This document shows, in pieces, positions 1 through 15,055 of a stretch of DNA of 35,878 bases. This stretch comes from Nitrospirota bacterium (GTDB taxonomy: Bacteria; Nitrospirota; Nitrospiria; Nitrospirales; Nitrospiraceae), in the NCBI GenBank assembly GCA_020027965.1, contig JAHRHE010000067.1, forward strand, positions 1 through 35,878, read 5' to 3'. Within the stretch, counting starts at the first letter, position 1, and each line of letters opens with the position of its first letter. Made by a program: the position numbers and the translations under genes. The notes under the pieces are model-generated. The model was not told the origin of the DNA. It worked only from the letters and a program-made list of their open reading frames with translations, and did not search any database.

Positions 1-2
1 AG

Positions 3-68
3 CGGCTCCATCAGAGCCTCGGCTATCTCAGTCCGCTGGAGTTCGAACGACGGATCCGTGACCCTTAA
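3..68 (+). pseudogene. IS3-family transposase (OrfB) C-terminal end, cut by the window edge
   Basis: The frame from position 3 reads RLHQSLGYLSPLEFERR and stops at 66-68. This is the familiar C-terminal signature of the IS3-family integrase-type (DDE) transposase OrfB, in which 'RxHxxLGYxSPxEFE' sits just before the stop. Only 21 residues are in the window, so it cannot be told whether the gene is intact to the left. It is followed directly by what looks like the right end of the element (74-98). Confidence 0.75.
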
Positions 69-73
69 CCCGG

Positions 74-98
74 TGTCCACGAAACCCGGGGTAGCTCA
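74..98 (+). mobile_element. Probable right terminal inverted repeat of the IS3-family element
   Basis: The stretch tgtccac..aacccgggg..gctca lies 5 nt after the transposase stop. IS3-family right ends commonly read TGTCCAC-x-AACCCGGGG ending in TCA, the complement of the TGA at the left end. The left end is outside the window, so the pairing cannot be verified. The element would end near position 98. Confidence 0.5.
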
Positions 99-101
99 AC
101 G

Positions 102-133
102 TGACCCCATTATTGACTTGACCCCATCATTGA
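102..133 (+). repeat. Two near-identical 15-bp direct repeats beside the IS end
   Basis: tgaccccattattga (102-116) and tgaccccatcattga (119-133) differ at one base and are separated by 2 nt. They lie directly outside the presumed IS3 end. They could be left over from target-site events or be a small regulatory repeat; the sequence alone does not decide. Confidence 0.45.
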
Positions 134-200
134 TGTGGGAGCAAACTGCGCCAAAAGACGGGTTGAATTTCCTCTCTGTTCGTTAACATCCGAGGTCAAA

Positions 201-923
201 GTGAAAACCAATTGTTATCTCAGCGCTTCAGTTGCCGGCATCCTCTTGTTGATGCTGGCATGTACAAACGAGGCACAGCACCCTGAACTGCCGGCACAGT
301 TGAGAGATAGCCTCGTGCAGGTTGGCACATCCGATGTATTTGTTTCGGCACTGAAAAACATCAGACCCAAGCCTTCAATGGAGAGTGCCGGTTTGCCCTG
401 CGTCAAAAGCTGCGCTACCACCGAAATTCTGTGGGTACAGGTAAGCTACCCCATCACCGTGTGCTACCCGCCCGATTTTCCCACACAGAACATCATAACA
501 ATGTACAAGCAGGGGAAAGAACCCGACAGCCTTGCCGCTATCATTGCCTCGAAAACTCCCGTGAGCCACCAGGTGAATACGCGCATAGGAGCCTACAACC
601 GGTTATTCTGCAAAACACATGGTGGGCCATGGTACGCAGAGATCGTGGATCAGGAACTGTGCAGCAGCTGCGGCCCGGGTCCGCATAAATTTTCTATGAC
701 AATACTGGGTGTTCAACAGAATCTCTACTGGGAATGGTGGGGAACACTGGATGGCCGTCCGCAGGAGGTAGTGTTTTTTGGTGACCCCTGGCTTCGTGGC
801 CAATCCGTTCTGGACTGCGACCCAACTGACCCTACCAACTGTAGCGGAGCTACTCCGCCCGATCAGCCGGCTTTCAGCCCTGCACAGCCGGGTAAAAATC
901 CAGCCAAGAAATTTAGGCGATAG
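201..923 (+). CDS. Putative lipoprotein of unknown function
   Basis: I do not recognise a family. A GTG at 201 gives a 240-aa protein that begins VKTNC and has a hydrophobic stretch followed by the lipobox LMLAC (Cys at residue 21), which fits a lipoprotein exported by Sec and processed by signal peptidase II. An upstream ATG at 135 in the same frame would place about 22 extra residues before the signal peptide, so 201 is preferred. The mature part contains several Cys pairs (CVKSC, CSSCGPG) and a Pro-rich tail (PPDQPAFSPAQPGKNPAKK). Base composition looks less GC-rich than the core genes further right, and it lies next to an IS end, both consistent with acquired DNA. Function is unknown. Confidence 0.6.
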   Translation: MKTNCYLSASVAGILLLMLACTNEAQHPELPAQLRDSLVQVGTSDVFVSALKNIRPKPSMESAGLPCVKSCATTEILWVQVSYPITVCYPPDFPTQNIITMYKQGKEPDSLAAIIASKTPVSHQVNTRIGAYNRLFCKTHGGPWYAEIVDQELCSSCGPGPHKFSMTILGVQQNLYWEWWGTLDGRPQEVVFFGDPWLRGQSVLDCDPTDPTNCSGATPPDQPAFSPAQPGKNPAKKFRR

Positions 924-950
924 GCAGTTTAGGGGCCGATAGGCGATAGG
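914..950 (+). repeat. Pair of 11-bp direct repeats (taggcgatagg)
   Basis: taggcgatagg occurs at 914-924 and again at 940-950. The first copy contains the stop codon of the lipoprotein gene. The pair lies in the otherwise featureless gap 924-1105. It could be a remnant of a small duplication; no function is assigned. Confidence 0.4.
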
Positions 951-1105
951 AAATCCGGTTCATCCGGCATTCCCGCGGAGAAGAATTGTCAAGAATTGGG
1001 CTCAGAGTGTAACTCCGTTGAGTGGTTGGTCGACACCGGCGGGCTCCGGAGCGCATTGACATCTCAGTGCAGTAAGCGGAGACTCTGCCCAACGGGGGAG
1101 ACAAT

Positions 1106-1573
1106 ATGGCGCTTGCACACAACACGCGGAAATGGCTGTTGATGCAGGGGTTCGCATGCGACGCCGATTCAGCCGCCGTCGCCGACCTCCAGCCGTGGCT
1201 TCGTGTCACGCCAGGTCTTAGCACGCTCTGGATTCTTGTGGGCACGGCTCTCCAGTCCCCGGCAGCGCTCTGGGCGTTTTCGCTGATCGCTGCGCTGGGA
1301 GCGCTGAGCCCGTACCATCTCTTCGACGTGGTTTTCAATCAGGTCATACGACGCGTGGTGGAGGCCACGCCTCTTCCCCCCAATCCAGCGCCACGCAAGT
1401 TTGCGATGGGCGCCGCGGCCCTCTGGAGCGCGATCGCCGGTGCCCTCTTCGCGGCCGACCATGCCCTCGCTGGCCTGCTTGCAGGGCTATCCCTCGGGAT
1501 GGCGGGGCTGACGGTGACCCTCAGCCACTTTTGCTTGGGCTCCTGGATATTCCGGCGTCTCACGCGCACCTGA
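1106..1573 (+). CDS. DUF4395-like small integral membrane protein
   Basis: 155 aa with about four hydrophobic segments. The central part ALSPYHLFDVVFN followed by PLPPNPAPRKFA matches the pattern I associate with the DUF4395 family (SPxHPFDxxYN... PLPPNPAPRRFA), a membrane family of unknown function often seen near redox or thioredoxin-type genes. The start is supported by a GGGGGAGA Shine-Dalgarno sequence just upstream of the ATG. No operon partner is evident: an inverted-repeat element follows. Family membership is by memory of the motif; the biochemical role is unknown. Confidence 0.7.
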   Translation: MALAHNTRKWLLMQGFACDADSAAVADLQPWLRVTPGLSTLWILVGTALQSPAALWAFSLIAALGALSPYHLFDVVFNQVIRRVVEATPLPPNPAPRKFAMGAAALWSAIAGALFAADHALAGLLAGLSLGMAGLTVTLSHFCLGSWIFRRLTRT

Positions 1574-1620
1574 CTGCGGGCAGGTCTGGATTCGACAGGA
1601 ACCTGCGCGGACACATTACG

Positions 1621-1706
1621 GGGACATTCTACTTATCAGGCCCACCCCAGAGTTGCCCGAGGAGAAGGCTGCGCATCGCGGCCGCCGCAATTCGGTAGAA
1701 TGTCCC
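1621..1706. repeat. MITE/REP-like element with perfect 12-bp terminal inverted repeats
   Basis: gggacattctac (1621-1632) and gtagaatgtccc (1695-1706) are perfect reverse complements and enclose 62 bp without an ORF. The unit could be a miniature inverted-repeat element or a REP-type element mobilised by a REP-associated (Y1) transposase; none is encoded in the window. It sits 34 bp before the next start codon and could be transcribed as part of that leader. Confidence 0.6.
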
Positions 1707-1740
1707 TTTTCCATCCTGTGGCGTCTCACATCCGTCGCTT

Positions 1741-2031
1741 ATGCGCATCGTGGGCAAGCTCTTGGTGGGTGTCACGCCGTTACTGCTGACCTTCCTGTTT
1801 GCGTGGCTTGTGATGGAAGACTATCTCAGCTTCGGTGGTGGCGAAAAAGAAATCTTCCTTGCCGTTCCCCCTTTGATCTGGTCGTTCCTGTTTCTGGTGT
1901 GCTATCTCGTGTTGTGGTGGCGGAGGCTGGCACCTGGGCGTTCGGTCGTGGTTTCCTCCGCGATAGCGACCGGGCTCGTTGCGTTGGCTTGGGTTGTGCT
2001 TTACGGTGTTATGTGGTTCAGGTTCGGGTGA
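1741..2031 (+). CDS. Small hydrophobic membrane protein, unknown
   Basis: 96 aa with three predicted membrane helices (about residues 4-26, 41-60 and 70-92), charged residues only in the short connecting loops, and a WWRRLAPGR loop giving a clear inside-positive pattern. That pattern supports a real membrane protein over the longer overlapping frame from 1653, which is low in hydrophobic runs. No Shine-Dalgarno sequence is evident before the ATG. No family is recognised. It lies in the accessory zone between the 12-bp inverted-repeat element and the methyltransferase. Confidence 0.5.
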   Translation: MRIVGKLLVGVTPLLLTFLFAWLVMEDYLSFGGGEKEIFLAVPPLIWSFLFLVCYLVLWWRRLAPGRSVVVSSAIATGLVALAWVVLYGVMWFRFG

Positions 2032-2172
2032 GCGGAGGTTGCGGATTGTGCAGCCCTGCAATATTATTCCGTGAGACAGTTCGCCAGCCACCATCAGACA
2101 GGCAGCACGCCCTGACCCGCGACAACGCTGCCCCTCGACCATGGTTGATTCATGTGTCTGAAGGAGGGCAAC

Positions 2173-2985
2173 ATGACTTCAGCAGCCATCCAGTCGCACA
2201 ATATCAAGACAGCCGCCACCTGGAACGCCGGCGGGCAGCAGTACGAGAGAGTCAGCCAGACCATCGCCGACTCGATCGAGCATTGCGTCATTCGCCTCGC
2301 GCCTAGGCCCGGCGAGCGTGTTCTTGACGTGGCGACCGGCACCGGCTTGGCCGCGCGCCGTGTGGCCGCTCGAGGCGCCACGGTCATTGGCGTCGATCTG
2401 GGCGCTGATCTCATTGAGGCTGCCAGGGCTGCCGCCGCTGAGGCCCGGCTGACTATCGACTTTCGAGTCGGCGACGCCGAGAAGCTTCCCTTCGAGGACC
2501 AGAGTTTCGACGCAGTCATTTCAACCTGCGGGGTTATGTTCGTGCGGGATCCTCAGACGGCGGCTACCGAGTTGGCACGCGTTTGCAGGAAGGGTGGCCG
2601 GCTCGGGTTAACGACTTGGCCTGCCGACGGGACCATCGCAGGCCTCTTCAAGATCATGAAACCGTACATGCCGGAGCCCCCCTCGCCACCGCCACCCTCC
2701 CCCTTTGAGTGGGGGAGCAGGGAGAAGGTGAGACAGCTCCTCGGCTCAGCCTTCGATCTGCGTTTTGAGACCGGCACAACAGTGCTCCGGCAGCCAAGCG
2801 GCCTGGCGGTCTGGGAGCTGTTCGTGGCAGGATATGGGCCGACGAAATCGCTGGCGGTGAGCCTCGATCCAGAGCGCCGCGAGAGCTTGGAACGGGATTT
2901 CATCGCTTACCACGATAGTTTCAAGACTGAGCTCGGCATTGCGATGCCTCGCGACTACCTCGTAACGATCGGTATCCGGAAGTAG
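2173..2985 (+). CDS. Class I SAM-dependent methyltransferase
   Basis: 270 aa from the ATG at 2173, which is preceded by a strong AAGGAGGG at a normal distance; an ATG at 2152 overlaps that site and is rejected. Motif I is VLDVATGTGLAARRV, followed by VIGVDLGADLI (motif II acidic residue), the VGDAEKLPFEDQSFD segment and VISTCGVMFV (motif IV region). This is the classic Methyltransf_11/UbiE-like Rossmann core that transfers a methyl group from S-adenosylmethionine. The substrate cannot be inferred. A Pro-rich loop (PPSPPPPSPFEW) follows the core. An attC-like site starts 36 nt after its stop, so this gene could be the payload of an integron-like cassette, though no matching site was found upstream of it. 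Confidence 0.85.
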   Translation: MTSAAIQSHNIKTAATWNAGGQQYERVSQTIADSIEHCVIRLAPRPGERVLDVATGTGLAARRVAARGATVIGVDLGADLIEAARAAAAEARLTIDFRVGDAEKLPFEDQSFDAVISTCGVMFVRDPQTAATELARVCRKGGRLGLTTWPADGTIAGLFKIMKPYMPEPPSPPPPSPFEWGSREKVRQLLGSAFDLRFETGTTVLRQPSGLAVWELFVAGYGPTKSLAVSLDPERRESLERDFIAYHDSFKTELGIAMPRDYLVTIGIRK

Positions 2986-3021
2986 CCTGTCCGTGGGAGA
3001 GGTCTTTACAATAAGACATCG

Positions 3022-3084
3022 GCCTAACCATTCGCTTAACTCGGACGTGCAAAGAACGCGCGCCGGTTAGCGCGATCGTTAAAT
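3022..3084 (+). other. attC-like integron recombination site (candidate 1)
   Basis: The 63-bp segment starts with GCCTAAC, which fits RYYYAAC, and ends with GTTAAAT, which fits GTTRRRY. Inside, cgcttaactcgg near the left pairs with ccggttagcg near the right if two bases bulge out, and cgtgc pairs with gcgcg around a 7-nt loop. Outer core boxes, a long imperfect hairpin and extrahelical bases on one strand are the hallmarks of attC sites recognised by integron integrases. The layout lines up well with the attC of aadA cassettes as I remember it. No intI gene is in the window. Confidence 0.5.
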
Positions 3085-3092
3085 TGCAGGCA

Positions 3093-3443
3093 ATGAGGAA
3101 ACCGTGGTTCGTCTATGCACTTGGCGCTGTGTCGGCGATTCCTCCCTTGGCGACTCTTCTTCTCCTCCTCGGTGGCCCTGCCGTCGTCCAATTCCTGGGT
3201 CTCTCACTCCTCATCGTTCCGGCGGTTGGTGGGGTTGCGACCTGGGTCTTGTTGTTCTACGCCTACTGGGGGCGTCCGCTGGGCTGGCGGGATCTTGTCT
3301 GGATCGTGGTGGTTGGACTCTTCTGGTTTATCACTCTGCCGGCGTTTTGGTACTACAATATCTACAGCCGATCCGATCTACAATCCAACTCGAGGCTACA
3401 GCCGGCGCGCCGCGCGCGGCTGACGTCGAATGTGAGAAGGTAG
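3093..3443 (+). CDS. Small membrane protein in a possible integron cassette
   Basis: 116 aa from the ATG at 3093 (a TTG nine bases earlier is possible). It has three hydrophobic helices (roughly residues 7-30, 35-55 and 66-88). The tail SRSDLQSNSRLQPARRARL is basic and polar, and is encoded by a GC-rich hairpin that resembles a degenerate attC site. The start codon lies 9 nt after the end of the first attC-like site, and the gene runs into the second, which is the usual arrangement for a single-gene integron cassette of about 354 bp. No family is recognised. Confidence 0.6.
   Translation: MRKPWFVYALGAVSAIPPLATLLLLLGGPAVVQFLGLSLLIVPAVGGVATWVLLFYAYWGRPLGWRDLVWIVVVGLFWFITLPAFWYYNIYSRSDLQSNSRLQPARRARLTSNVRR
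3376..3438 (+). other. Degenerate attC-like hairpin (candidate 2)
   Basis: Same length (63 bp) as candidate 1. cagccg (3399-3404) pairs with cggctg (3417-3422), and tcga (3390-3393) with tcga (3426-3429), with mismatches between. The outer boxes are ATCTACA and GTGAGAA, each off consensus by one or more bases. It overlaps the last codons of the preceding gene, as attC sites of cassettes often do. On its own it would be weak; its spacing and length relative to candidate 1 make it worth noting. Confidence 0.35.
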
Positions 3444-3458
3444 CCGGAGGAGATGCTG

Positions 3459-3815
3459 ATGGCAAAGAAACTCGCCATTGCTCTTGCGGTAGTGATGCTC
3501 GCGATCGTGGCGTGGGGGCTGTTCCTTGAGAGCAGTGGCGTCACGATCGTCATCAACGGGCAGGAAGTGACCGGACCTCTCAAGGGCGGGATCGGCGCGG
3601 CGGGACTGGTCGTGGCGGTGATCGCGCTGTTTTGTGCCGCCATCCTCCTGGTGTTTGTCTTCGCGGGAATCGGCGTCATCGTGTTGGGGAGCGTTGTCTT
3701 TGTTGGTGTGATTGCGGCGTGGCTGGCCTTTCCGTTCTTGCTGCCCTTACTCATTCCGTTGGCGATCTTGTGGGGATTCATCGCTATCGCGTGGAGGCAG
3801 CACACATCGTCTTAG
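3459..3815 (+). CDS. Hydrophobic membrane protein, unknown
   Basis: 118 aa. GGAGGAG at 3446-3452 lies 6 nt before the ATG at 3459 but touches the ATG at 3453, so the second is preferred. One N-terminal helix (about residues 3-22) is followed by a short outer loop (LESSGVTIVINGQEVTGPLKGG) and three more long Gly/Val/Leu-rich helices reaching to about residue 112. It starts 15 nt after the preceding gene, so the two may be cotranscribed. No family is recognised; a role in membrane stress or transport would be a guess. Confidence 0.6.
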   Translation: MAKKLAIALAVVMLAIVAWGLFLESSGVTIVINGQEVTGPLKGGIGAAGLVVAVIALFCAAILLVFVFAGIGVIVLGSVVFVGVIAAWLAFPFLLPLLIPLAILWGFIAIAWRQHTSS

Positions 3816-3930
3816 GTTGAACGGACTTCTAACTCATCCCTGACTCCCACCACCGACGTGACGAATGCGGCCGAACCACGGGCCGTTCCAGCGGCGGCTG
3901 AGATAACGCCCTGACCCGACAGGAGCTGAG

Positions 3931-5586
3931 ATGCGCGTTCGCAATGCCAACGGCCCGTTTTCGGTCCGCGCCATCTGCGGGCCGCACGTCGTGATTCTCG
4001 CCTGGGATGTCCGCGAGGCCGACTGGGACGCCTTCACAGCGAGTCTTCTCGGCTTCGCGATCGAGCGCAGCAAGATCAAGAACGGCGTGATCGTCGAGCG
4101 CTACTTCCTCCGCGGGATGAAACGGTTCGAAGACAAAGACAAGGGGCTCCCGCCCGGAACCCCGGTGCCCACCTCGGAGCACCCCGTTCAGTCGTTTCAG
4201 TGGGGCGACTACACCGTGACCCCCGCGCAACGGTACAGATACCGCGTCGTGCCCGTCTACGGTGAGCCCAAGCTCCTCGAACTCAGGGACGCGAGCGCAG
4301 TCACGGTCGACGTGCCCGCGCCCGAATCGCACCTCGGCAGCCACGCCGTCTACTTTAACCGCGGGGCCGCGGCCTCCCAGGCCTACGCCCGTCAGTTCCC
4401 GAACCCGAAGCCTGACGAGACCAAGCCCCACTCTCGCCAGATGCGGTGGCTCTCCCGGGGGCTCTACGAGGCACTGATCGCCTTCATCGGCCGGGCCGAC
4501 GGCCCCGCCTTCGCCCTCCGCAGCGCCTTTTACGAGTTTCGGTATCTTCCGGTCGGTAAGGCCTTGAAGAAGGCCCAGCAGGACGGCGCGGACGTGAAAG
4601 TACTATACGACGAGCCGAACTATGGGGCGGAGAACCGCGCCATGGTCGGCAAGGCCGGGATCAAAGACCTCTGCAGGGAGCGGAGCGGCGCTGAGTCGGA
4701 GAAGCACAACAAGTTCCTGGTCCTGCTCGAGAGCGGCGTTCCGGTGGCGGTCTGGACCGGATCCACCAACATCTCGGCCGGCGGGATCTTCGGGCATTCG
4801 AACGTCGGCCACGTCGTGTTCGATGCCGCTATCGCCCAGCGCTACCTCGACTGCTGGTCCCTCCTGTGGGAGACGCCGGACGTCGCGAATGCGGCGCTGG
4901 CGAAGCGAAACAATCAGGCCACCCCCACGCCGCCGGGTGATCCCAATCCCAACTCGATCACAGCGCTCTTCAGCCCGCGCGACGGTGGCACGCTCCAGTG
5001 GTACGCCGACCGGATAGACGGGGCGCAGGACATTGTGTGTTTCACCGTAGCCTTCACGATCGCGGCGCCCTTCGCCACGGTGCTGAAGAAACGGAACGAC
5101 GTGTCGCGGTACGTCCTCAAGGATAAGAACTCGCCCGGCGACGACGAGATCCGGCGCGACGACGATCTGCTGATCGCAGCGGGCGCCCGGTTCGGGAAGA
5201 ACGATCTCGTCAATTTCCGGGCCGAGGCGCTGACCGGATTCAACAAGAACCAGTACATCCACGACAAGTTCCTGCTCATCGACCCGCTCGGCGACGATCC
5301 GGTGGTCATTACCGGATCGGCCAACTTCAGCTCCGCGTCGACCACCTCCAACGACGAGAACATGCTCGTCATCCGCGGCAACACCGAGGTGGCCGACGCG
5401 TACTTCGGGGAATTCATGCGGCTCTTCGACCACATTTACGCCCGCCACATCATCACCCGGAAGCTCTCGAATGCGGCCAAGAAGAACCAGCGGAACTACC
5501 TGGCGAACGACAACTCGTGGGTGGCCTCCCACCGGCAGGGTCCGAAGGCACGGCGGCGCCGGAGGTTCCACGGCCCCTGGGCATGA
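3931..5586 (+). CDS. Phospholipase D-like (HKD) family protein
   Basis: 551 aa, preceded by an AGGAG about 5 nt before the ATG. The C-terminal two thirds is a tandem PLD domain. The second motif is canonical: H444-D-K446-FLLI-D451, followed by VVITGSANFSSAS. The first is H259-N-K261 followed by FLVLLE, so the usual Asp at H+7 is Leu with a Glu next to it; TGSTNIS follows as expected. PLD enzymes use both motifs to form one active site that cleaves phosphodiesters in lipids or DNA. Residues 1-140 form a separate beta-rich domain not recognised, perhaps fibronectin-like. There is no signal peptide, so the protein is probably cytoplasmic. The next gene begins immediately after. Substrate, lipid or nucleic acid, is undetermined. 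Confidence 0.85.
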   Translation: MRVRNANGPFSVRAICGPHVVILAWDVREADWDAFTASLLGFAIERSKIKNGVIVERYFLRGMKRFEDKDKGLPPGTPVPTSEHPVQSFQWGDYTVTPAQRYRYRVVPVYGEPKLLELRDASAVTVDVPAPESHLGSHAVYFNRGAAASQAYARQFPNPKPDETKPHSRQMRWLSRGLYEALIAFIGRADGPAFALRSAFYEFRYLPVGKALKKAQQDGADVKVLYDEPNYGAENRAMVGKAGIKDLCRERSGAESEKHNKFLVLLESGVPVAVWTGSTNISAGGIFGHSNVGHVVFDAAIAQRYLDCWSLLWETPDVANAALAKRNNQATPTPPGDPNPNSITALFSPRDGGTLQWYADRIDGAQDIVCFTVAFTIAAPFATVLKKRNDVSRYVLKDKNSPGDDEIRRDDDLLIAAGARFGKNDLVNFRAEALTGFNKNQYIHDKFLLIDPLGDDPVVITGSANFSSASTTSNDENMLVIRGNTEVADAYFGEFMRLFDHIYARHIITRKLSNAAKKNQRNYLANDNSWVASHRQGPKARRRRRFHGPWA

Positions 5587-5613
5587 GTGCGTTTGCTGAG
5601 GCATAATAACCCC

Positions 5614-6498: not shown

Positions 6499-6580
6499 CG
6501 TGAAGCGTGAAGCGTCACCGAAAACCGTTTTTCGTATCTCGGGAAGAATCGGACTAGATACGCTTCACGAGGAACGAGAG
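6499..6580. repeat. Dispersed hairpin repeat, copy A
   Basis: Contains cgtgaagcgtgaagcg (6499-6514), then cgtatctcg (6533-6541), a 12-nt spacer and ctagatacg, followed by cttcacga. The stem differs from its perfect form at one base. It is the first of six intergenic copies of the same family (see also 7576, 8174, 8677, 13224 and 18233). Confidence 0.75.
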
Positions 6581-6635
6581 ACAAAGAAGGCGCGACGCCC
6601 CCGCTTGGGCAGGCTGACACGAAGGAGGTTGGAGC

Positions 6636-13128: not shown

Positions 13129-13223
13129 CGCTGGGGGCAGCGTCGTTCGTTCCGCCGCAGCTTTAGCGAAGGCGGGCTCTCGCATCTCGGGGCACCCGTT
13201 GCTTCGGGAATGCGACGGGTCCC

Positions 13224-13275
13224 GGTATCTCGTGAAGAATCGGGCGAGATACGCTTCACGAACGACGAGATACGA
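13224..13275. repeat. Dispersed hairpin repeat, copy E
   Basis: gtatctcg (13225-13232), a 12-nt loop and cgagatac (13245-13252) form a perfect 8-bp stem, followed by gcttcacgaacgacgag. It lies just beyond the stop of the response-regulator gene on the minus strand, between two convergent genes, where it could act as a bidirectional transcript end. Confidence 0.8.
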
Positions 13276-13276
13276 G

Positions 13277-15055
13277 CTAGGAGGCGCTGGCCGCGGTGGT
13301 TAGCTCGGCCATGACATTCACAGCCGGGGCAGGCGCGTCCGCCAGCTGAGTGGGGACGAAGATGACGGCCTCCACCAGATTGCCGCCGCCGCGATACTCC
13401 AGCCTGTCGAAACTCAGGATCTTGGCCCTGGCGATTCCCCGTCCGTGGGTGTGAAAGGCTCGCTCCGGAGTCATCTCCAGAAAGGGTTCCCAGTCAAACC
13501 CAGCCCCCTGATCCATGATGATCACATGGATTTCCTGCGGCCGGCGCTCGAACTCGACCGTCGCATAGCGGTTGACGCACTGCGGTAACCGCAGGCGTCG
13601 CTCGACTTCAGCCTCCCAGGCTTGAGCTCGCATGAGCCGGGATTTCTCCGTATAGGTGATGCCCAGGTTCCCGTGTTCAACGGCATTGATCATCAATTCG
13701 ACCAGGCCGGCCCCGGCCTTCTGCGGATCGGGACAGGCATTGGCGATGACGGCCGCCAGGATGTGGGCCTCCTGCAGCGTGCGGAAGCGAAATTGGGCAG
13801 CTTCCATCATCGTCAGAGTCCGGACGGTCATGTGAATCTGTTCCTCCAAGGCCCGGTGAGCCTTCTGGTCGTCCACGGCGGCGCGCACGATGGAGAGCAG
13901 CACGTCCTTGTCGAACGGCTTGGTCAGGTAGTAATAGGCGCCCGCCTGCAAGCCTTCGAGGACATCCGCAGCCGACGTCGCCCCAGTGAGCAGGATAACG
14001 GGCAACATCTGTAACGCGGGATGGGCCTTCATCTTGGCCAGCAGTTGCAGGCCGTTCATCCTGGGCATGATCCGGTCGAGGAGCACCGCGTGAAAGTCCC
14101 GCGGGGCCTGATCGAGGATCTCCCAGGCTTGCTGGCCGCCGGAGGCGGTGACTGTCCGGTAGCCGGCGGCGGTCAGGAACCGGACAAGCAGCTCGAGGTT
14201 CAAGGGTTCGTCATCAACCACAAGCACGGCCGGGCGTGGATCACTCATGTTAGACCCCTCATCGATGTGGGCCCTGCGGAGGACGGCGCCGGATCCGGGG
14301 CCGTCCACCGGCAGCTCGAGGCAGTGTCGGCCACTGAGATTGGCCTGCACCTGTGCGCCGGCAACGGCCTGCTCGAACGCGACCGGACCTTGGCTCACCC
14401 AGTCATCACCGCTCACGACGCCGATACTCAGCGAGAAGGCGATCGGCTCTGCGGCGGGAGGCCTGCGGGCACGGTGGTCCACAGCCGCGCGGATCCGTCT
14501 GGCCGCATCGCGCACCGCCGCCTTGTCGCAAGACGGCAGAATGAAGAGGAACCCTCCGCCGTCATCCCGCCCCGACCTGGGAGACGGACCGGTGAAGGCG
14601 CGCATTCGTCGGGCCGTTTCATGGACCACGTGCTCTGCCACCACAGGTCCGTGTGTCGCCTTGACCTGTTCAAAGGCCTTGTCCATCTCTCGCAAGTGAG
14701 CGAGGTCAGCCATGACGATCACCATCGGACCGGAGTCACTGGCGACGCGGAGCCAGAGGTGGAGACCAAAGCGGTCTTCGGTGTGAGTCGAGTCATCGGG
14801 GGTGGCGACCCGGGTGGGGCCTTCACCGGCGCTCGCGCCCGCGCGGCTCAGCCTCCCGCTGCAGGGGAACGCGACAAGTCCCAGGAATATGACGGTCATA
14901 AGCAGGCTGACGGGCCGCCACCTCGCGCCCGACTGGCCAGGCGCGCATAACGGCAGCCGTTTGCCCTCTTCCCCTCGCCCCTCGCTTCTGGTCTCCTGCT
15001 CCTCACCAGACATGGAAGGCTTCCAGACGATTCCTTGCGATTCCTTAATTGCCAT
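13277..15055 (-). CDS. Response regulator with RsbW-like ATPase and a degenerate GGDEF head
   Basis: 592 aa in one open frame. Residues about 45-65 form one membrane helix. Residues 100-250 resemble a GGDEF domain (VIVMADLAHLREMDKAFEQV, FSLSIGVVSG), but the signature reads D165-G-G-G-F169 in place of GGDEF, so diguanylate cyclase activity is unlikely. A receiver domain follows (VLVVDDEPLNLELL; phospho-acceptor D327 in VLLDRIMPRMNG; the conserved Lys in YYYLTKPFD). The end is a GHKL ATPase of the RsbW type (ELMINAVEHGN, IMDQGAGFDW, GRGIARAKILSFD), expected to act on an anti-anti-sigma partner. An internal ATG at 14248 with its own GAGGGG would give a 323-aa REC-ATPase form (D58), possibly the main product. 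The partner is not in the window. Confidence 0.8.
   Translation of the reverse strand: MAIKESQGIVWKPSMSGEEQETRSEGRGEEGKRLPLCAPGQSGARWRPVSLLMTVIFLGLVAFPCSGRLSRAGASAGEGPTRVATPDDSTHTEDRFGLHLWLRVASDSGPMVIVMADLAHLREMDKAFEQVKATHGPVVAEHVVHETARRMRAFTGPSPRSGRDDGGGFLFILPSCDKAAVRDAARRIRAAVDHRARRPPAAEPIAFSLSIGVVSGDDWVSQGPVAFEQAVAGAQVQANLSGRHCLELPVDGPGSGAVLRRAHIDEGSNMSDPRPAVLVVDDEPLNLELLVRFLTAAGYRTVTASGGQQAWEILDQAPRDFHAVLLDRIMPRMNGLQLLAKMKAHPALQMLPVILLTGATSAADVLEGLQAGAYYYLTKPFDKDVLLSIVRAAVDDQKAHRALEEQIHMTVRTLTMMEAAQFRFRTLQEAHILAAVIANACPDPQKAGAGLVELMINAVEHGNLGITYTEKSRLMRAQAWEAEVERRLRLPQCVNRYATVEFERRPQEIHVIIMDQGAGFDWEPFLEMTPERAFHTHGRGIARAKILSFDRLEYRGGGNLVEAVIFVPTQLADAPAPAVNVMAELTTAASAS
14255..14260 (-). promoter_or_regulatory. 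Internal Shine-Dalgarno sequence for a short response-regulator form
   Basis: GAGGGG on the minus strand lies 6 nt upstream of an in-frame ATG at 14248, which starts MSDPRPAVLVVDDE, exactly where a stand-alone receiver domain would begin. This suggests a second, soluble product from the same gene or a recent fusion of two genes. Confidence 0.55.

Follow-up and report, generated by a model that had tools for sequence, protein, structure and literature searches.

Two short hairpin-forming segments that enclose a single small gene, with no integrase gene beside them, raise the question of whether this locus is what remains of an integron cassette array. Such a relic array had been proposed in a first-pass annotation. 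The window, i.e. the whole stretch of 35,878 nt that was analyzed, represents contig C207 of the genome assembly G000 (263 contigs, 3.6 Mb, 97% complete). Integron cassettes sit head to tail. Clusters of attC sites lacking an integron integrase are termed CALIN and have been proposed to be degraded integrons (PMC9024848), and a single attC site lacking an integrase is termed SALIN (PMC12690207). The proposal is supported by the match of the first site to attC covariance models, by other attC sites in the same genome and by the failure to find an intact intI gene in the assembly. We assign a probability of about 0.75 to the locus being the remains of a cassette array without integrase, i.e. a CALIN. 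In kind it is nothing new, but the fossilized remnant of a gene-capture system that is already known.

Two covariance models were used to search for attC sites. Model R1 was built from 11 attC sites of intI-associated arrays in relatives and 7 attC sites of annotated plasmid integrons, and includes no site from G000. Model R2 is broader and draws on 99 attC matches in plasmids and in genomes other than G000. Covariation in the attC set behind the models was strong, with 92.6% of the cells paired and 275 two-sided changes versus 94 in shuffles, in an alignment that was itself fitted to the structure.

Site 1 (3022..3084, plus strand, 63 nt) is a real attC site. Its outer boxes, R'' (3022-3028, GCCTAAC) and R' (3078-3084, GTTAAAT, with the crossover at G3078^T3079), fit the consensus sequences RYYYAAC and GTTRRRY. 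After a 5-nt spacer (3029-3033), L'' begins at 3034 and carries the extrahelical bases T3037, T3041 and A3045, and L' ends at 3071, followed by a 6-nt spacer (3072-3077). The L boxes, GCT(T)AAC..CGG and CCGGTTAGC, form inverted repeats in which the fourth position of L'' is extrahelical, and an inner stem and a variable loop complete the architecture. The earlier description of this site, including its length, consensus outer boxes, extrahelical bases and inner stem, was thus accurate. A search with attC covariance models, suggested there as a check, was unambiguous for site 1. With R1 and filters switched off, it scored 33.4 bits over the full model (E 6.9e-7 in the 36-kb window) and was by far the best match, the next-best ones reaching 10.2 bits. 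In the 3.6-Mb genome it ranked third with R1 (E 7e-5), after sites on contigs C127 and C136. R2, which takes in two relatives of site 1 (L081 and L082), gave 45.9 bits (E 6.1e-10), and the R1 value is therefore the independent figure for this site. Three outer positions of R' and R'' no longer pair properly. Judging from its sequence, site 1 still appears to offer what an IntI supplied in trans would require. When either strand of the two sites was folded as a single strand, neither site was more stable than shuffled sequences (z -0.25 to -1.3). Hence, hairpin energy was not counted as evidence.

A DNA search with positions 2940-5600 in 147 genomes of the family identified three stretches 77-81% identical to site 1, each in another genus (G153, G178 and G119). 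The alignments to G153 and G178 start at R'' and stop either at the GTT core or shortly beyond it, with unrelated flanks. The alignment to G119 extends 9 nt upstream of R'', and the core of this copy is eroded (GTGAGGC). All three genomes contain further attC sites, and in G153 and G119 sites defined by a covariance model share the contig with the site 1 copy. No synteny with the searched region was found across the 147 genomes; the genus comprises one genome. Conservation in position among relatives, which according to the first-pass annotation would, if no attC occurred elsewhere, speak against a relic array, was therefore not seen. Copies in foreign surroundings, as these alignments indicate, are the behavior of an attC and not of a positional element. 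Between 341 and 8802, the contig of the G119 copy (C14, L116) bears one array with seven attC matches, which score 13-60 bits and all lie on a single strand, at least one core being changed to GTGAGGC. This contig is not the one bearing intI in this genome. Since strong and weak sites are mixed in this array, weak beside strong matches seem to be the look of decaying arrays.

The second site had been described as a degenerate segment of the same length as the first (3376-3438, 63 nt). The degeneracy was confirmed, since the GTT core is changed to GTG, but the site is shorter. The R2 match, the canonical attC register and a homology boundary place it at 3383..3438 (plus strand, 56 nt). R'' (3383-3389, ATCCAAC) fits the consensus and is followed by a 5-nt spacer. 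L'' reads GCT(A)CAGCCGGCG with the extrahelical A3398 at the fourth position, and L' (CGCGGCTGACG) is separated by a 6-nt spacer from R' (3432-3438, GTGAGAA). R' is without the GTT core and pairs with R'' at 4 of 7 positions. R1 matched the inner hairpin only (10.2 bits, E 0.92), which was considered as a ground for rejecting the site. This was overturned by the register, by the homology boundary and by R2, to which site 2 aligned from end to end, ranking second in the window with 14.0 bits and an E-value of 0.13 for 36 kb and two strands (0.0035 within 2950-3950). In a simple box-and-pairing score, 47 of about 71,500 positions scored at least as high as site 2. The homology boundary is given by contig C22 of genome G104. 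Homology to this contig begins at 3432, the first base of R', and where the window has GTGAGAA, G104 reads GTTAGAC, a consensus R'. Over 229 kb of control loci, the highest R2 match scored 19.4 bits and lay where R1 had already picked a match, and none of the others exceeded 10.2 bits. By position, register and context site 2 is a probable decayed attC, its score alone being not significant, and it would be a decayed attC at most and not a working one.

The spacing of 354 bp reported in the first-pass annotation is correct when measured from crossover core to crossover core (G3078^T to G3432^T). The cassette-like unit defined in this way (3079..3432, plus strand) contains one ORF. If site 2 is accepted, its layout, an ORF and then an attC, would fit a gene cassette. 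The gene encodes a hydrophobic protein of 116 aa (3093..3443, plus strand) and starts 9 nt after site 1, as annotated. Its end had been placed inside site 2, but the ORF reads through the entire site and stops just past it (stop codon 3441-3443). The C-terminal residues of the protein (SNSRLQPARRARLTSNVRR) are mostly translated eroded attC. The protein had no match in Pfam, NCBIfam or PADLOC and one weak relative among 196 other genomes of the order.

Since a cassette gene precedes its own attC, site 2 would belong to the 116-aa gene and site 1 to the gene upstream, which corrects the earlier picture. This upstream gene (2173..2985, plus strand) codes for a class I SAM-dependent methyltransferase (Pfam Methyltransf_11, 4.7e-25). 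Its stop codon lies 36 nt before R'' of site 1, and it is likely the cassette gene of this site. The gene is rare in the order and has relatives of 78-87% at the amino acid level in Nitrospirota and Rokuibacteriota, with an 87% relative belonging to a Nitrospirota MAG. None of these relatives adjoins an attC (R1 gave no match in 115 kb around them), and they were therefore dropped as proof of cassette travel. A left boundary of the methyltransferase cassette was not found. Positions 1-3084 contain only three GTTRRRY motifs (162, 1017 and 3078), none of those upstream being convincing. In the closest relative (L131, MHEO01000040), the heptamer GTTAAAT, identical to R' of site 1, is located 20 nt behind the methyltransferase stop. 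It was rejected as the trace of an insertion target because nothing else nearby agrees, and it is probably due to chance.

Downstream of site 2, a gene for a hydrophobic protein of 120 aa (3453..3815, plus strand) shares 81% nucleotide identity with the G104 contig over 3432-3779. It is possibly a former third cassette whose attC is gone. R2 recognized no attC behind this gene in the window, and none was found beside or upstream of its G104 relative. Searches in plasmids and viral contigs yielded no relatives of the 116-aa and 120-aa proteins. Overall, the layout agrees with two cassettes in succession, to which the 120-aa gene perhaps adds a third.

An intact intI gene was not found in the 97%-complete assembly, and C207 contained no intI match. 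The search suggested in the first-pass annotation yielded only a C-terminal relic on C127. There, at 13.97 kb (13967-14125), an 82-aa ORF ends in an IntI C-terminus that matches positions 263-315 of TIGR02249 (E 6.8e-27), better than the XerC/D models, and the N-terminal part of the integrase is absent. Tyrosine recombinases encoded on C139 and C171 were rejected as IntI candidates, being ordinary XerC/D-like proteins. The search for further attC sites in this genome, likewise suggested there, was successful on C127, C136 and C67. R1 gave five matches within 6 kb on C127 and two within 1.4 kb on C136. With R2, there were six matches on C127 (L049), all in one orientation between 7219 and 13259 with scores from 47.0 down to 16.1 bits and including a site with perfect boxes (13215-13259), two matches on C136 and one on C67. 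C127 is a relic integron. It also carries small cassette-like genes, and its array has the IntI fragment at the far end.

On C136 (L110, 546-1972), two attC sites are located around a methyltransferase gene, which directly precedes one of them. Upstream of this gene a GTTAGGC represents a possible left cassette boundary, and the contig also carries a frame-broken remnant, in which DNA resembling the start of the methyltransferase gene of the window was recognized by eye. At least two attC sites within a few kb and in one orientation are clearly present on C127 and C136, and the window contains one certain and one decayed site. A complete integron has an intact intI next to its array, and the window has none; as in a CALIN, no integrase lies nearby, in an assembly that is incomplete.

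The low scores of site 2 in both models, its incomplete R'/R'' pairing and its GTG core would also agree with a SALIN. Site 1 would then be the only attC, and a GC-rich hairpin in the 3'-end of the 116-aa gene would fit the register by chance at site 2. This chance fit would have to account for a match that ranks second in 36 kb, both strands counted, and lies in the same orientation 354 bp behind site 1. Its core would also have to coincide with an independently found homology boundary, and the control loci, with one preselected place left out, did not exceed 10.2 bits. We therefore consider the single-site explanation unlikely. An integron unrelated explanation, a dispersed palindromic repeat or RNA element, could draw on the copies of site 1 in three other genera. 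It was already disfavored and has a negligible probability, because no Rfam family matches anywhere in the window, site 1 combines the full attC architecture with a score far above background, and its relatives in G153 and G119 share contigs with further attC sites.

It also has to be considered that the integron is live and that its integrase and first cassettes are located on another contig or were not assembled. The contig begins within a repeated IS-like element, of which it contains the right end (1..99, plus strand). Identical copies of this end are found in C23, C231 and C44, and its translation resembles the end of an IS3-type transposase when read by eye. Thus, the contig breaks 3 kb upstream of the sites and anything farther upstream is out of view. 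Moreover, the attC sites on C136, C67 and C207 are all near contig starts and in the same orientation, the assembly consists of 263 contigs, and at this completeness it could lack an intact intI that the genome possesses. However, a full intI is absent from what is 97% of the genome, the intI on C127 is a fragment, and an active array would not be expected to contain attC cores that are eroded. This makes a live integron very improbable.

For the preferred reading, a cassette array that has lost its integrase, the following course of events can be proposed. The cassettes would once have been inserted head to tail by IntI, which would have recognized attC by its folded bottom strand and carried out the strand exchange at G^TT in R'. 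Binding of IntI to the folded bottom strand, with the extrahelical bases setting the strand choice, has been described (PMC2727003). The integrase gene may later have been lost, leaving the 82-aa C-terminal ORF on C127. The sites would then have drifted, the outer R'/R'' pairs of site 1 slipping, and site 2 losing its GTT core and being taken over as the 3' coding end of the 116-aa gene. Today the cassettes can probably no longer move. That they were mobile in the past, that the array decayed because the integrase was lost and that they are now immobile is what we infer for this locus. It would document integron decay in a little-sampled group, with slipping outer pairs in one site of intact layout, a lost core in the next and a fragmentary integrase elsewhere.

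The window resembles described CALINs (PMC9024848) in the single orientation of its attC sites, the absence of an integrase nearby and the units of one ORF. It differs in that one of its two sites scores near background, and with standard settings probably just one attC would be reported. As IntegronFinder 2.0 by default requires two attC sites in order to reduce false positives (PMC9024848), the reporting of this locus depends on the threshold. A SALIN (PMC12690207) is what a strict threshold would report here. In contrast to a SALIN, the window has a probable second, eroded site, and attC clusters are present elsewhere in the genome, which points to array decay. Chromosomal integrons of relatives (G070, G068, G138, G160 and others) share the attC architecture and belong to the same order of bacteria, but they possess a full intI next to the array and in the same direction as the cassettes, which the window does not. 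The CALINs of Candidatus Nitrospira inopinata (PMC9024848) likewise comprise attC sites without integrase, in a different genome.

Near-full-length intI genes were detected in 21 out of 197 genomes of the order, where the arrays follow downstream of intI and run in the same direction. An R1 match at an E-value of 1e-3 or better was obtained in 94 out of 144 genomes of the family. Of these attC-positive genomes, 79 were also included in the intI screen, 13 with intI and about 66 without a near-full-length intI, a ratio that is indicative only, given rough E-values from a shortened calibration, a strict intI threshold (E 1e-60) and incomplete assemblies. The occurrence of attC without an accompanying integrase thus seems to be common in the family, and surveys based on intI would miss most of its integron footprint. 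It might even be speculated that attC cassettes in this family spread and persist mainly via integrases acting in trans or encoded on transient elements, and that the lone cassettes of the window represent a normal, still mobilizable state and not a dying array. We regard this as doubtful and distinctly improbable.

Besides the IS-like end, two short dispersed repeats were found in the window. One of 68 bp (994-1061) is about 79% identical to two copies located 1.4 kb apart on C151 and another one on C5, and is not attC-like. The other (6526-6593) has about a dozen copies in the genome, among them those on C141, C158, C66, C42 and C74 and at position 13225 of C207.
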